Of a stretch of DNA of 64,000 bases, positions 37,282-43,131 are shown one piece after another (within the stretch, counting starts at the first letter, position 1; each line of letters starts with the position of its first letter). A program made the translations under genes and the position numbers. Below the pieces are notes generated by a model that had not been told where the DNA came from, made no database searches, and saw only the letters and a program-made list of their open reading frames with translations. The DNA lies in NCBI GenBank assembly GCA_014904845.1, contig MU119406.1, forward strand, positions 37,388 to 101,387. Reading direction: 5' to 3'. This DNA is from Acephala macrosclerotiorum. Lineage: Eukaryota; Ascomycota; Leotiomycetes; Helotiales; Mollisiaceae.

Positions 37282-38381
37282 CTTAGATTCCTTCTCCTTG
37301 AATCCCTCTCACTCTGTACAGATATTCGTCCTGTTATCGGGTTTCAATTTCGAAAAATGCACCTCTCATCTCTGTTGTCGTCAAGCTCGAAGATGGGGAA
37401 GAGCACAAATGCGGGGTAATTTTCCGGCGACAATCACCGGCGGGAGGGATCTCATAAAACATGCATCGTGAAGAATACAAATGAAAGATAAACTCTCAAC
37501 CGAGGTCCATGCATGCATAGCACCTAGGAAATAAAATAACGCCGGAATGACATCAGATCGATCTAGACGCGGATTGAAGGAACTTAAATCATGCACCCCA
37601 GCCCCTATCCAGACCTCGGCTCCCTATTTTTAATGCCGAGAGATCTCCCTATCAAAGCCGTCCGAAGCTTAAGCAACGGAAAACCATTGAAATCAACTTG
37701 GAATTGAGAACAATTTGAGGACCTGACAACAAGAACCTGTAAGACGAAGCTCAACCATCATCTCATTCCACGTCGTAGTAACAGCTATTCTTCACCTCAA
37801 GATGTCTCGGTGAACGTCCAACATTGAGCACCAGGACCGTATCGCGTCGTCTCCAACAATCCCCATCTGTCATCCGCAGCCTTGAAAGCGTTGTTTGCTT
37901 GACGCCTTTCGTTGACGAAAGATCGTTTTTATATTTTTCTAAATCGGCGAAGACAAGGGTTCGAAAAGGGTACAGATGACTCCCATACGTCGTCTGGAAA
38001 GGTGAGAGTGAATCCCGAAGACAATTTCACTCTTTCATACAAGTAACCATAAAGCCTGTTCGTAGTTCTCGTGAGTATACATTGCATACCAGTCCTTGGA
38101 AAGATGGACAACTAAAAGAGCGTCGAGCCGGCTCAACTTCCTACGTCTGACTTTGCTTGCGTGACAACTGGCTGGCTCTGTAGAATCTCCTCCAGACTTA
38201 CACTCCTGATACTTGCTTGAAATATGACCTGGACTTTTCTTTTTTTTGCCAACTCCACTCTCCGCTGTCAACTTCATTCTTTGCAATCAACTTGTTTGCC
38301 ACTGATTTCATTCTTCGCTATCAACTCCCTTCTCATCCTTATCTTCTTCAATTTTCGCACGACATCCTCTCCTCTCTCATA
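37282..38381. other. intergenic, promoter of the ligase gene
   Basis: Only short ORFs without motifs. It ends at the left inverted repeat of the transposon. Confidence 0.5.
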
Positions 38382-38407
38382 CAGCGGTATGATTAACTAG
38401 TGCGAAA
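38382..38407 (+). repeat. left terminal inverted repeat of the 3.6-kb transposon
   Basis: Identical over 26 bases to the reverse complement of 41968..41993; TA target duplication directly outside. Confidence 0.93.
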
Positions 38408-38536
38408 CCCCGTGATTTAGCGAGAACACCAAAAATGGTCGCACAGTCCGATTATTCCGAACCAGCATTCCCATCAACTCGAATAACTCAACCATTTTCT
38501 TATAGAATAGCTTGAAATTGATAATTCGAACGAATC

Positions 38537-40426
38537 ATGGGTAGTGGAGAGCGTCACTCTAGGCGCTTAGCAAAGGAAAAGGCTATTGAGGATGAAATTC
38601 CCGCCAAACGGACCCGCACCACGAACACAAAGACATTGGCTGCTTTCAGCCAGCAGCAACCACCAATCGCAAAGGCCTTTAAGAGAAAGAGAGCAAAGAC
38701 AATCTCAAAGACCAATGGGCCATCTGATCCACTTCTTGTGACACCGAAAAAGCTCGCAGACCAATTGGCAAATCAACTGAATACTGCCCCACTAGATGCC
38801 CCGAGTCTCTCTAACTCGAGCTCCCACCAGCATTCTCCACTCGCGAAGCGGTCGAAACCCATTGAGTCAAAGGCTAAAGTGGAATCATTCAACTCAAATC
38901 TGCTCGGTCCAAATTCTTATCATATGATCTTCAAGCTCATTCCTGTCATTGATAGTGTTTCGAAGCGTGTAATGCTCAAAACGGCTGATATCAATAGCTC
39001 ATTCTTCGAAGGTCTAGACGAGATTATTTCTTTTATTGAAAGAGGATATATATTCGATTGGGCAAACAAAAGAACTCTTCGAGGGGGTGATCGGCCGACA
39101 AGAAGGCCATTTGATTTTACTATTGGCAGCCTGAAAAGCAATAGTTTTCAAGCTAGAGTGCAAGATCCAGTGGAGTTTGAAAGCGTTCTTGCATATGTTC
39201 GACAAGCCTTTCATGGCGGGGACAAGAAGAACAGCGGGGTTCTGATTGTTAATTGTCATTACGTTACTTTCAACAGGCAGCGAACTCTTTTTATGATAAA
39301 CGTAAATAGAAAGCAGATCAAAACTCAGAAAACCAGCAAATCGACTCCACTTTACATCTCATTTGACGCAGTACCAACAAGCGAAGCAAAAGATGATAAG
39401 AGTGACAGTACCTCTCTTTCTATTAAAAAGCCTGGAAAGTCTCGAGACTCCGTTACTTAACGTTCTCTCGCGGCCATTAAAGCTAACTCTTTAATTGATA
39501 CCGATATTCAAGCCATTCGAAAACAAATCTTTAAGTTTTACTAATACTATAAAGAACGTTGTTTTAATCACAAGCAATGTTGCTTCAAACTAAAGAGCTT
39601 CAAAACTCACTATCGAGTATCTATTGCTGAATAGAAAGAGTGGGCAGGCCTGATCTGCGCTCGAGTCGATAATATCGATTTAGAAACTCTTTCTGGCGAA
39701 TGGATTGCTAAGTACGAAAAAGGTTGGAATCAGACAGAGATTAAAAGGATCGGCAATCGCAAGAAAGAACTCTCGGCCAAGAATGAGATTGAGCCAGCGC
39801 TTATTATTATACAGAACTATATGCAGACTTCAGCTGTTGGCGCTATTTCTATTTCATCAACTGATGTTCAACTTTTCTCCGACTATGTTTTTCAAGTCCC
39901 GGGGTACCTGCCTCAATATCAAGTTCCACACTATAAACAATATATTCACTCTCGAAAACTACAGTCGACAATGTCTCGTGACGTACTTTTTGCATCTTCT
40001 TTTATTCGAGTTGCATTAGAGAGTGAAGATGTCATAATACAATTCAAGGCCTATTGTTTAAATGGTGAGATTTTGCTTTTTCGAGTCAAAGCTATTAATA
40101 AGGTTCTAAATCTTGTTAAGCAGTATATGATAGACTTTGAGCAATTGAAATCCTCTAAGATTATCAAGCAATTAATCGAGCTAAGTGCTTTAGCGGGAAT
40201 AGCAAATTTGATACAGAAAAGAGTCTCTGCTTTTAAGAACGATTATAAGAAAGTGCAAGTAGTAGCTCAAAGAGTACTAGCTTTAAAGAACGCTCGTTCT
40301 TTTGACTTCTTCGCAGTAGATCTTCGTCGTCAAATAGGTGGAGACTATGATACAAGTGCGAAGTACGAAGGTGCGAAGTATAATAGAAAGAAGTTTGATG
40401 ATATAGACTACTATAATGAGTACTGA
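38537..40426 (+). pseudogene. transposon-borne gene of unknown function, three in-frame stops
   Basis: One continuous frame of 630 codons with exactly three internal stops: TAA 39458, TAA 39542, TAG 39632; it ends with TGA. Protein-like sequence crosses each stop (SKRSKPIESKAK ... RRPFDFTIGSLKSNSFQARV ... SLAAIKANSLIDTDIQAIRK ... SGEWIAKYEKGWNQTEIKRI ... LQSTMSRDVLFASSFIRVAL). The first 110 residues are Lys/Arg/Ser-rich and look nuclear (AKRTRT, KRKRAK). No DDE, helicase or zinc-finger motif is seen. All stops are one C-to-T change from Gln codons (CpA to TpA). Its place between the repeats suggests an accessory protein of the element; I recall related unnamed proteins in other fungi but cannot verify this here. 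Confidence 0.75.
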
Positions 40427-40774
40427 TAAACGTTCAGAGCTGTAAAGCGTTGAAAGAATTGATCTTCTATTGAAAAAACACAAAAACACTATAAAACTTT
40501 TATAGTAAAAGCACAAAAACACTTGAAAAATCATGTCATGATATTGCATTATGTAGTGAAAATGAACATACTCTCAATGACTTAGTATTTATTATTACAT
40601 GTGTTCACATATAAATATAAGCGAAGAGTAATATAAAAGTAATAATCATATTGTGCTTATATCTAAAATCAATGTTAGAAGCACTACAATAATGAATGCT
40701 AATGCGGTAGAACCACAATAGTAAATGTATGAATTATGAAAATATATAAAATGCATCGCCGGCAATGTTCGGGC

Positions 40775-41803
40775 TCAAGCAATTAAACACTAATTAGAAG
40801 GGACATCTTGCACTTTTGCATGCCTGAAATGTGCTCTTGCTCTCCGAGCGGCATCTGCACCTGTACCTACCTTTATGATAGCCCATTCGAAGAATAGTTG
40901 GTAGATAGAGAACCTTCTTCTTTCCCTTCGATAATAGCATCGAATATATGCCTTGAAATCTCCAAAACTCTCCTCAATAGGATTGAAATCCGGAGAATAA
41001 AAAGGTAAAAAGCGGATCCAGACTCCTTTAGCTCGACATACTCTTCTTATACTATCGATATTCGAATAATGAATAAACGCGTTGTCCAAAACAAAAACAA
41101 ATCTAGAACTAAAATAAGCGTTGCAAAAAGAAAGCAACTCATCCACAATAAAATCTTCAACTAATTGACTAGTTCCCGTGCCTTCGAAAATTGTAATTGC
41201 AATGTATCCGTCCAAAGTATAGACTAGAAAGCAAGAGACCCTAGTTCGACTTGCAAACCATCTTTGAATAATAGCTCTAACTCCTTCGTCTGCCCAACCA
41301 AATTGCCGGTCCCCTGTTCTATCATCACTCTCTAATTCATCAAAAAAGACCAACTACTCTACTCTAAACTCTTAAAGCTCATTCTACCAATGTGTCCGTA
41401 AATCCTAGTTCCGTTGGACGGCCTCTACTCGAAGCTTCTTCCTTGTGACTTTAACTCGCTTTAGAGATCTTGAAATGGCCGATTAAATAACGTCGACGTC
41501 GAACATATCGAGTAAAAAGGTTTGTAGTTCGTCTTAATACATCTATAGCCTTTTGTCCAAAATGGACTTCATTGCCTGCTCCATTCTCCATATAATAACT
41601 TTTCTAGAATCTCTCGAACGCAAAACAACTAATATGCCAACTTCTACTCGTGTTTTATATCGATATATAATCGATATATGGCATTCGTAGTTCTCAACTA
41701 GCTGCTTACAATAAAAGTAGTCGACTAATACAGCTAAATCGAGAAGCGATCCCTCGATGGCAGTCACAACGCTATAAACCAACCGAACAAGCATACTAGA
41801 CAA
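40775..41803 (-). pseudogene. Tc1/mariner (IS630-like) DDE transposase, degraded
   Basis: Cut-and-paste transposase. Reading from 41803 in one frame, the helix-turn-helix part (DELQTFLLDMFDVDV ... ISRSLKRVKVTRKKL) leads into the catalytic domain: LVFFDE (first Asp), VLDNAFIHYSN (second Asp), FLPFYSPDFNPIEESFGDFK (third acidic residue). The frame is interrupted between 41543 and 41353 by seven TAA/TAG codons, each at a place where Gln fits, plus one TAG at 40790 followed by TGA at 40775. Several residues typical for the family as Pro, Ser or Ala are Phe, Leu or Val (for example FLPFYSP for FLPPYSP), all explained by C-to-T on this strand. The N-terminal exon beyond 41803 was not resolved. Confidence 0.85.
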
Positions 41804-41967
41804 TTAAAATTATTATCCATTAATAGATTAACTTTCTTTCTATCTTTTGAGCTACTCACCTTGTAGATCAAAGATGGAATAATGAAGTTGTAACGCGCCT
41901 CATTATTATGGTAAATCGCGTTGCGAGTCTCAATCACTAAAAAGTTCGACTCGACTATTTTTAAGGT

Positions 41968-41993
41968 TTTCGCACTAGTTAATCATACCGCTG
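41968..41993 (-). repeat. right terminal inverted repeat of the 3.6-kb transposon
   Basis: Reverse complement identical to 38382..38407; inner continuation is weakly similar (AAACC / AAAACC). Confidence 0.93.
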
Positions 41994-43131
41994 TAAGCAC
42001 AAAAAATCAAAGGCAGCCACACTCCTTCGCGCCCCACCCCACTGCTCGGTATTCCCCCCACAACCTCCAACCTCCAACCCCAACCCAACCCACTTCCCAA
42101 ACCCTGCCCCCCTCCCCCAAAAAACAAACTCTCAAACTCAAACTCAAAACCCCCAAGATCGGATCCAGAGCCTCAAATCCCTTTCAAAGCCCGCCCGAAA
42201 CTCAAACCCCAATTGAATCGACTCGCCGCACCTTACTGGCTCCATATCCGCCCTCCGCAATTCTATTTTAAACCTCCCCTCAAACCCTTACCCAAAACTT
42301 TCAGTCCTGATTCAGAGGCATGGTACTTCTTGTCCACTTGAAATTTCTTCTTTCTGTGAAAAGTTTTATCGGTAGTGAGAACCTAGGTCAAGGTAAGAAG
42401 ATGGGTAATATACCGCGCATGGAGGGACATTTCGTGCATGAACTTCTCCAACACTTGGCAAACTTTGCGGACCCTGCCGAGATTTCATGACTCTTGCTTT
42501 CTGGGCGGTAGATAAGTACCGGTGATATGAGACGACCCGATGTGTGAAAGTTGAGGACAGGCGTTGTTATGAGACGGCGTGGACACTTCGTAATGCAACG
42601 CGAGCTGATGTCTGAACATTGGTAAGGTTTCTGAACTGTTCGATGACTGACTTGATTGGGTATATACGGCAAGGTAGAACTGTAAACAAACATCCCCCCC
42701 TTCTTCCCCTCCTCCCTCCCCCCTCCCCAAATCCTAATGCAGGACATGTCTCATCCCAAACTCAAGTTCCCATGATGTGCTGCACAATAGTGTGCTATGA
42801 CTGTAGCTAGATTAAACCCTCCCAAAAGCAAACCCATACAGATGATGAATGCAGCGATCTAAATGTAGAAAATGCCCTTGAAGTACCCTAACAGATACCA
42901 AGTATACAATAAGCCAACCAAGATGCCGCTATGCACCCTCAATAATGTGCGCCATGCTAATCCCATACAAAACCATCTTCAGAAAAGAACTAACATTCAA
43001 AGTAGTGTAATGTCGTGAGACCCGAGATTATATGTACTGTGCTTTGCTATGCACTGAAATTTGAAGCAATGATCGGACGTTCGTGATAATCGTATAAGTC
43101 GTAAAAATGAAATGTTGACCCGACCCGAGAC
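41994..43131. other. intergenic with C-rich low-complexity tract
   Basis: 42040..42125 is a C-rich, CCAAC-type tract. No gene supported; a minus ORF at 42747..42388 has no motif. Confidence 0.45.

Follow-up and report, generated by a model that had tools for sequence, protein, structure and literature searches.

The window analysed here, a 64,000-nucleotide stretch of contig MU119406.1 of the ascomycete Acephala macrosclerotiorum, contains a decayed Tc1/mariner-type transposon in which the gene for a DD36E-type transposase is accompanied by a second, convergent gene that is probably a real part of the element. We hold, at about even confidence, that this was a cut-and-paste transposon whose accessory product acted as a nuclear, zinc-motif DNA- or chromatin-binding partner of the transposase.

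The element occupies positions 38382-41993 (3,612 bp) inside perfect 26-bp inverted repeats and TA duplications, as the first-pass annotation of this DNA had described for a 3.6-kb stretch, and both a comparison of its arms and a genome scan with a control bear that description out. The inverted arms at 38380-38410 and 41965-41995 (31 nt, 97% complementary) include the TA duplications and the perfect 26-bp repeat. A scan of the whole genome for the 26-mer, with up to 3 mismatches, found eight places, two of which are the window's own ends, whereas a backwards control pattern found none, and chance is therefore a poor explanation for the repeat. The TA target duplication, the terminal inverted repeats and a transposase of DDE_3 type together mark the element as a member of Tc1/mariner, and it presumably moved by cut-and-paste. 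Its features are as follows:

38380..38381, no strand: left TA target duplication
38382..38407, plus strand: left 26-bp terminal inverted repeat
38537..40426, plus strand: accessory gene frame (629 codons and a final stop; 3 internal stops)
38537..38701, plus strand: conserved basic N-terminus of the accessory protein, with blocks like GERHSRRLAKEK and TLAAFSxxQPPIxKAxKRKR
39557..39619, plus strand: candidate Cys/His motif of the accessory protein, possibly a zinc site (RC-x5-CC-F-x7-HYRV)
40427..40789, no strand: intergenic space between the 3' ends of the convergent genes
40790..41794, minus strand: DD36E-type transposase frame (334 codons and a final stop; 7 internal stops)
41968..41993, minus strand: right 26-bp terminal inverted repeat
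41994..41995, no strand: right TA target duplication

The initial description of a transposase with a second gene convergent to it likewise stands, the DDE_3 match lying on the minus strand and the second frame (38537-40426) on the plus strand. The genes also start near opposite termini, as had been said, with the accessory frame beginning 155 bp inside the left element end and the transposase about 200 bp inside the right end. A 33-nt unit is repeated in tandem at 40464-40529, in the space that separates the convergent 3' ends (two copies, 82% alike).

Both genes are dead in this copy. The accessory gene had been put at 630 codons, and its frame does have that length with the final stop included, but it is not open: internal stops lie at 39458, 39542 and 39632, and the longest ATG-to-stop piece within it has 307 codons. 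The initial description mentions neither these three stops in the accessory frame nor the seven in that of the transposase, and any impression of an intact copy has to be given up. All 10 internal stops are TAA or TAG. A gene split by introns was considered for the accessory protein and rejected; because a single frame carries isolated stops and aligns with two other copies with gaps of at most about 11 residues, we read the breaks as point breaks. Nor do we assign the stops of this copy to repeat-induced point mutation, since the dinucleotide ratios of the element (0.89 and 1.18) are close to those of the whole window (0.82 and 1.19), unlike those of the related copies of subfamily B described below (0.98-1.07 and 0.69-0.91).

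Related copies and the place of the second gene

The genome surveyed comprises 69.66 Mb in 778 contigs, and a search of it with the entire element found no near copy of the whole. The best other matches are 65-66% identical over the transposase region and lie on contigs C42, C419, C92, C24, C273 (two) and C66. These places hold seven full-length elements of about 3,593 bp, here called subfamily B, which are TA-flanked and have a different 26-bp repeat. Both ends of L032-L036 come from a pattern scan with up to 9 mismatches, while the left ends of L037 and L038 are more degraded and were read by eye. With stops read as X, the match of all seven copies extends at least from position 4 to 616 in the accessory profile of 616 positions and at least from 2 to 332 in the transposase profile of 334; L032 and L033 are themselves in both profiles. 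The distance from the left end to the accessory start is about 161 bp and that from the right end to the transposase start 199 bp, each read in five of the seven copies. The same convergent gene pair is found in the window element and in all seven.

Stops occur in at least one gene in all eight full-length copies. Transitions account for 99-100% of the differences in each of the 21 pairs of subfamily-B copies, and GC is as low as 0.23 in L036 among the five copies measured; this bias and the low GC are the pattern that repeat-induced point mutation would leave, and together with the size of the genome such mutation suggests a filamentous fungus. On contig C273, two full-length subfamily-B elements (L036 4240-7832 and L037 from about 2035, that is C273:53439-57031 and 57034 onward) adjoin each other in opposite orientations, separated by no more than TA, an arrangement that insertion of one into the other's TA duplication would give.

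The first-pass annotation had argued that the second gene belongs to the element and did not arrive later as a nested insertion, and in this genome the argument is supported by seven further copies that share the convergent layout between their own repeats and TA flanks. We rejected a nested insertion on the strength of this common structure and of the lack of inner terminal repeats: besides the element's own ends, no inverted pair within the element encloses the accessory frame, and no accessory gene with terminal repeats of its own was found inside it. Two other inverted pairs do enclose the frame (14-15 nt, 86-87% complementary), with the left arm outside the element. As far as this genome allows a judgement, the accessory gene is also not missing from most copies. 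Short TA-flanked elements of 441-496 bp with window-like inverted repeats are present (L042 4961-5453; L043 4735-5175; L045 4512-4952; L046 4465-4960); they have no room for either gene and look like deletion derivatives, probably non-autonomous ones and not transposase-only elements.

With the window's longest transposase piece as query, the genome gave 15 matches at E 0.001 or better, the window included, in searches for transposase and accessory sequences that score best candidates only. It had been proposed to check whether the accessory gene lies beside the same transposase between the repeats; a second gene accompanies 14 of the 15 matches, the seven other full-length copies among them, and is of the long type seen in the window in nine and, in five, of a shorter type (~385 aa) whose homology to it is plausible only. 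This count covers the neighbourhood of this transposase, 100 DDE_3 matches being listed in the genome and 13 of them being among the 15. Eight of the 15 are the window and the seven subfamily-B copies. In C2, the ninth long-type match, the accessory sequence adjoins the transposase in two parts about 7 kb apart, and was probably split by an insertion. In C329, C141, C51, C300 and C508 a gene of the ~385-aa type converges on the transposase from the other strand; that of C508 is interrupted and lies at a distance of 2.9 kb, that of C300 survives as a fragment only and that of C51 is broken over two frames. The fifteenth match, C73, leaves only about 700 bp before a contig start, which is not enough sequence to judge by.

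Some sequences fall outside this pairing. C458 has accessory sequence with no detectable transposase within 10 kb, which counts against the accessory protein being a conserved partner, and C62 and C289 have fragments of the short accessory type. DDE_3 matches also occur in the first ~170 bases of contigs C633, C19, C24, C246, C160, C285, C343 and C12, which suggests assembly breaks inside another repeated transposon.

Transposase relatives and the accessory protein

A 187-aa piece of the transposase (41353-40793) matches Pfam DDE_3 with an E value of 7.6e-22. Its second D and its E are separated by 36 residues (DD36E type), and among 16 database relatives, once aligned, neither D column varies and the E column is conserved in at least 90%. 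In the protein collection 39 proteins match the transposase profile; identity to L032 is 45-60% for 31 of these, and 11 of the 39 have a length of exactly 334 aa. A tree of 39 rows was built from the 27 of these proteins that reach 300 aa (the other 12 being shorter), nine sequences from this genome (including two of the seven subfamily-B copies) and three viral-contig rows. In this tree, whose details are unsure because several rows are long or decayed, the four long-accessory rows and C73 form one group (100/98), and the four short-accessory rows form another with the distant database proteins P0036, P0038 and P0039 (100/99). A scan of viral contigs gave 16 relatives of the transposase; 15 of these, all except L067, were scanned with the accessory profiles and gave no match, and the ORF lists of L057 and L062 were inspected.

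The accessory protein had been said to show no known domain, and this holds across Pfam, NCBIfam, PHROGs and PDB sequences. It has no Pfam match above the cut-off and none in NCBIfam or PHROGs, and the L032 copy has none in Pfam. Two Pfam matches below the cut-off, to DUF6849 (E 0.11) and YdaS_toxin (E 0.14), were judged to be due to chance, and the one PDB sequence that matched the accessory profile, AvtR (E 0.051), was likewise put down to chance. No homologue was found among 7,993 candidates scored from the protein database, which is weak evidence of absence, and neither accessory type was found in viral contigs or in scans of bacterial and archaeal genomes. The predicted model of the window accessory protein alone has a mean pLDDT of 33 and is unusable.

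End to end, the accessory proteins of the window and of L032 are 38% identical. At codon positions 1, 2 and 3, respectively, the two copies share 0.52, 0.62 and 0.39 of the accessory gene and 0.65, 0.73 and 0.45 of the transposase gene, and the figures for L033 are nearly the same. The intergenic stretch is 0.52 identical (168 of 323 aligned bases in a gapped alignment), a value that does not fall below the accessory average; identities are inflated when AT-rich DNA is aligned with gaps and decay adds noise to all these figures, and only the contrast between positions counts. Since second positions are the most and third positions the least conserved, this contrast suggests that both the accessory protein and the transposase have been under protein-level constraint. 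The best conserved accessory regions include the N-terminal blocks GERHSRRLAKEK and TLAAFSxxQPPIxKAxKRKR together with parts of the C-terminal third, and degraded versions of the basic N-terminus are recognizable in the C458 and C2 copies. The TLAAF-S of this N-terminus has a possible likeness to a degenerate PCNA-binding motif.

The motif RC-x5-CC-F-x7-HYRV of the window protein resembles RC-x4-C-x5-C-W-x7-HYKL of the short accessory protein of L050. A core pattern chosen after it was seen, C[WFY]-x7-[HY]Y[KR][LVI], occurs three times when 26 partly overlapping sources are translated in six frames (519,556 residues), each time in an accessory frame (window, L050 and L070); L068 does not have it, nor does L048, whose spacing is shorter by one residue. 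In four subfamily-B copies and the C458 copy most of the Cys/His positions read Tyr, which may reflect G-to-A or C-to-T decay, or may mean that the motif is dispensable. When the long and short types were compared by hhalign, the similarity was weak, with probabilities of 0.3% and 0.7% (P 0.18 and 0.078), and the alignment landed on the Cys/His motif; 3 of 200 locally shuffled controls reach the long-versus-short profile score, and hmmsearch gave no link (best E 2.1). Homology of the two types is no more than plausible from these sequence comparisons.

In L050 (2930-4084) and L048 (3615-4763) the short-type accessory frame is open over 385 and 383 codons, respectively, although the adjoining transposase has no full-length open frame; a search for TA-flanked inverted repeats around the gene pairs of C141 and C329 found none. 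These open frames may be old relics or, possibly, genes that the host has retained. What may be a miniature element of unrelated origin lies at 5246-5438 of L048, where 31-bp inverted arms with 90% complementarity flank 131 nt.

Possible roles of the second gene

In the mechanism that we propose, the DD36E transposase would cut and paste at TA, while the accessory protein, with its basic N-terminus and possible zinc site, would enter the nucleus and bind element DNA or nearby chromatin. There it may help the transposase, through assembly of the ends or recruitment of a target or host factor, and such help would keep both genes together. We favour a conserved partner because of the gene pair in the window and seven copies, the co-retention in 14 of the 15 best matches, the codon-position contrast, the conserved N-terminus and Cys/His motif, and the grouping in the tree. 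Against the DNA-binding part of this reading, family and PDB searches gave nothing usable and the structural model reached a mean pLDDT of only 33. A broader proposal would be that of a fungal Tc1/mariner lineage with an obligatory second protein of a new family, whose long and short forms have a common Cys/His motif and which has accompanied two transposase clades since before their split; we put it forward tentatively, with the balance of probability somewhat against it.

Accessory proteins of Arabidopsis VANDAL elements counter host defences, and the protein described here could similarly be an anti-silencing factor that lets the transposase be expressed under methylation or quelling and has no part in the reaction itself. 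It is long, basic at its N-terminus, element-borne and conserved, and its host mutates repeats, as the transitions among subfamily-B copies (99-100% in 21 of 21 pairs) would indicate. We nevertheless think this role unlikely, given that all eight full-length copies still have stops in at least one gene and that no chromatin or enzyme domain was found in the protein. The same conservation would also suit a self-regulator that represses or tunes transposition, for example by binding the ends or the transposase, and a convergent layout could set two transcripts or products against each other. A pure repressor, however, would readily be lost by a selfish element, and with a second gene in 14 of the 15 best matches this function appears quite improbable.

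Transposons sometimes catch genes, and a host gene or another element might have been caught once in an ancestor and carried since as a passenger without function, in agreement with the accessory sequence that persists in C458 without a detectable transposase. We give this explanation little credence: codon positions are unequally conserved at 38% protein identity, the convergent arrangement is constant, and another transposase clade likewise has a second gene so arranged. A Fanzor/TnpB-type RNA-guided nuclease, a candidate in so far as PMC3627910 places Fanzor1 proteins in Mariner elements and Fanzor proteins in fungi, was rejected as barely credible. Only two cysteines follow C349 in the window protein, which thus lacks the C-terminal C4 zinc finger, with RD after it, that belongs to the published pattern; Pfam searched up to E 1 yielded neither OrfB nor a zinc ribbon, and a search of PDB sequences up to E 10 yielded no Fanzor chain.

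If the accessory protein is indeed an obligatory partner of the transposase, the element would represent a two-component Tc1/mariner system, as opposed to the textbook mariner that needs its transposase alone. Tc1/mariner elements are the standard self-sufficient transposons, in which one protein suffices to jump in many hosts. Retention of a second gene in one lineage hints at a mechanism with two components, a novel regulator or a means of countering host defence. The accessory family may also give context to anonymous proteins in fungal genomes, and the database relatives of the transposase make the two-gene question testable beyond this genome.

Comparison with known transposons

The fungal Tc1/mariner elements include impala. 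No published fungal Tc1/mariner element with this second gene came up in searches of the open-licence literature; Repbase and subscription papers lie outside that scope and may well list multi-gene fungal mariners. Fot1 (PMC7325037) and Flipper (PMC3158057) resemble the window element in their TA duplications, short inverted repeats and DDE-type transposase. Typical Tc1/mariner elements measure 1.3-2.5 kb according to PMC8533490. Window-type elements differ from these fungal relatives in their 3.6-kb length and in their extra convergent gene of about 616-629 codons.

Incomer (DD36E), described from animals (PMC6875036), has the same 36-residue spacing between D and E as the window transposase, a likeness of spacing alone that implies no kinship. 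The Fanzor-bearing Mariner of PMC3627910 also combines a Mariner transposase with an accessory protein within TA-flanked inverted repeats, the window accessory protein being without the Fanzor pattern. The ciliate Tec and TBE elements are likewise multi-gene elements of Tc1/mariner type; according to PMC7325037 they differ in having three ORFs and other accessory proteins, a recombinase in Tec and a zinc finger protein in TBE. The Nuwa-group Harbinger elements (PMC12730594) pair a transposase with a separate DNA-binding protein. They differ from the window element in belonging to another transposase superfamily, in their 3-bp duplications and in the Myb/SANT nature of the partner, but it is on their combination of a transposase and a Myb/SANT protein that the putative partner role of the accessory protein is modelled, and they may serve as a working analogy for the gene pair in the window.
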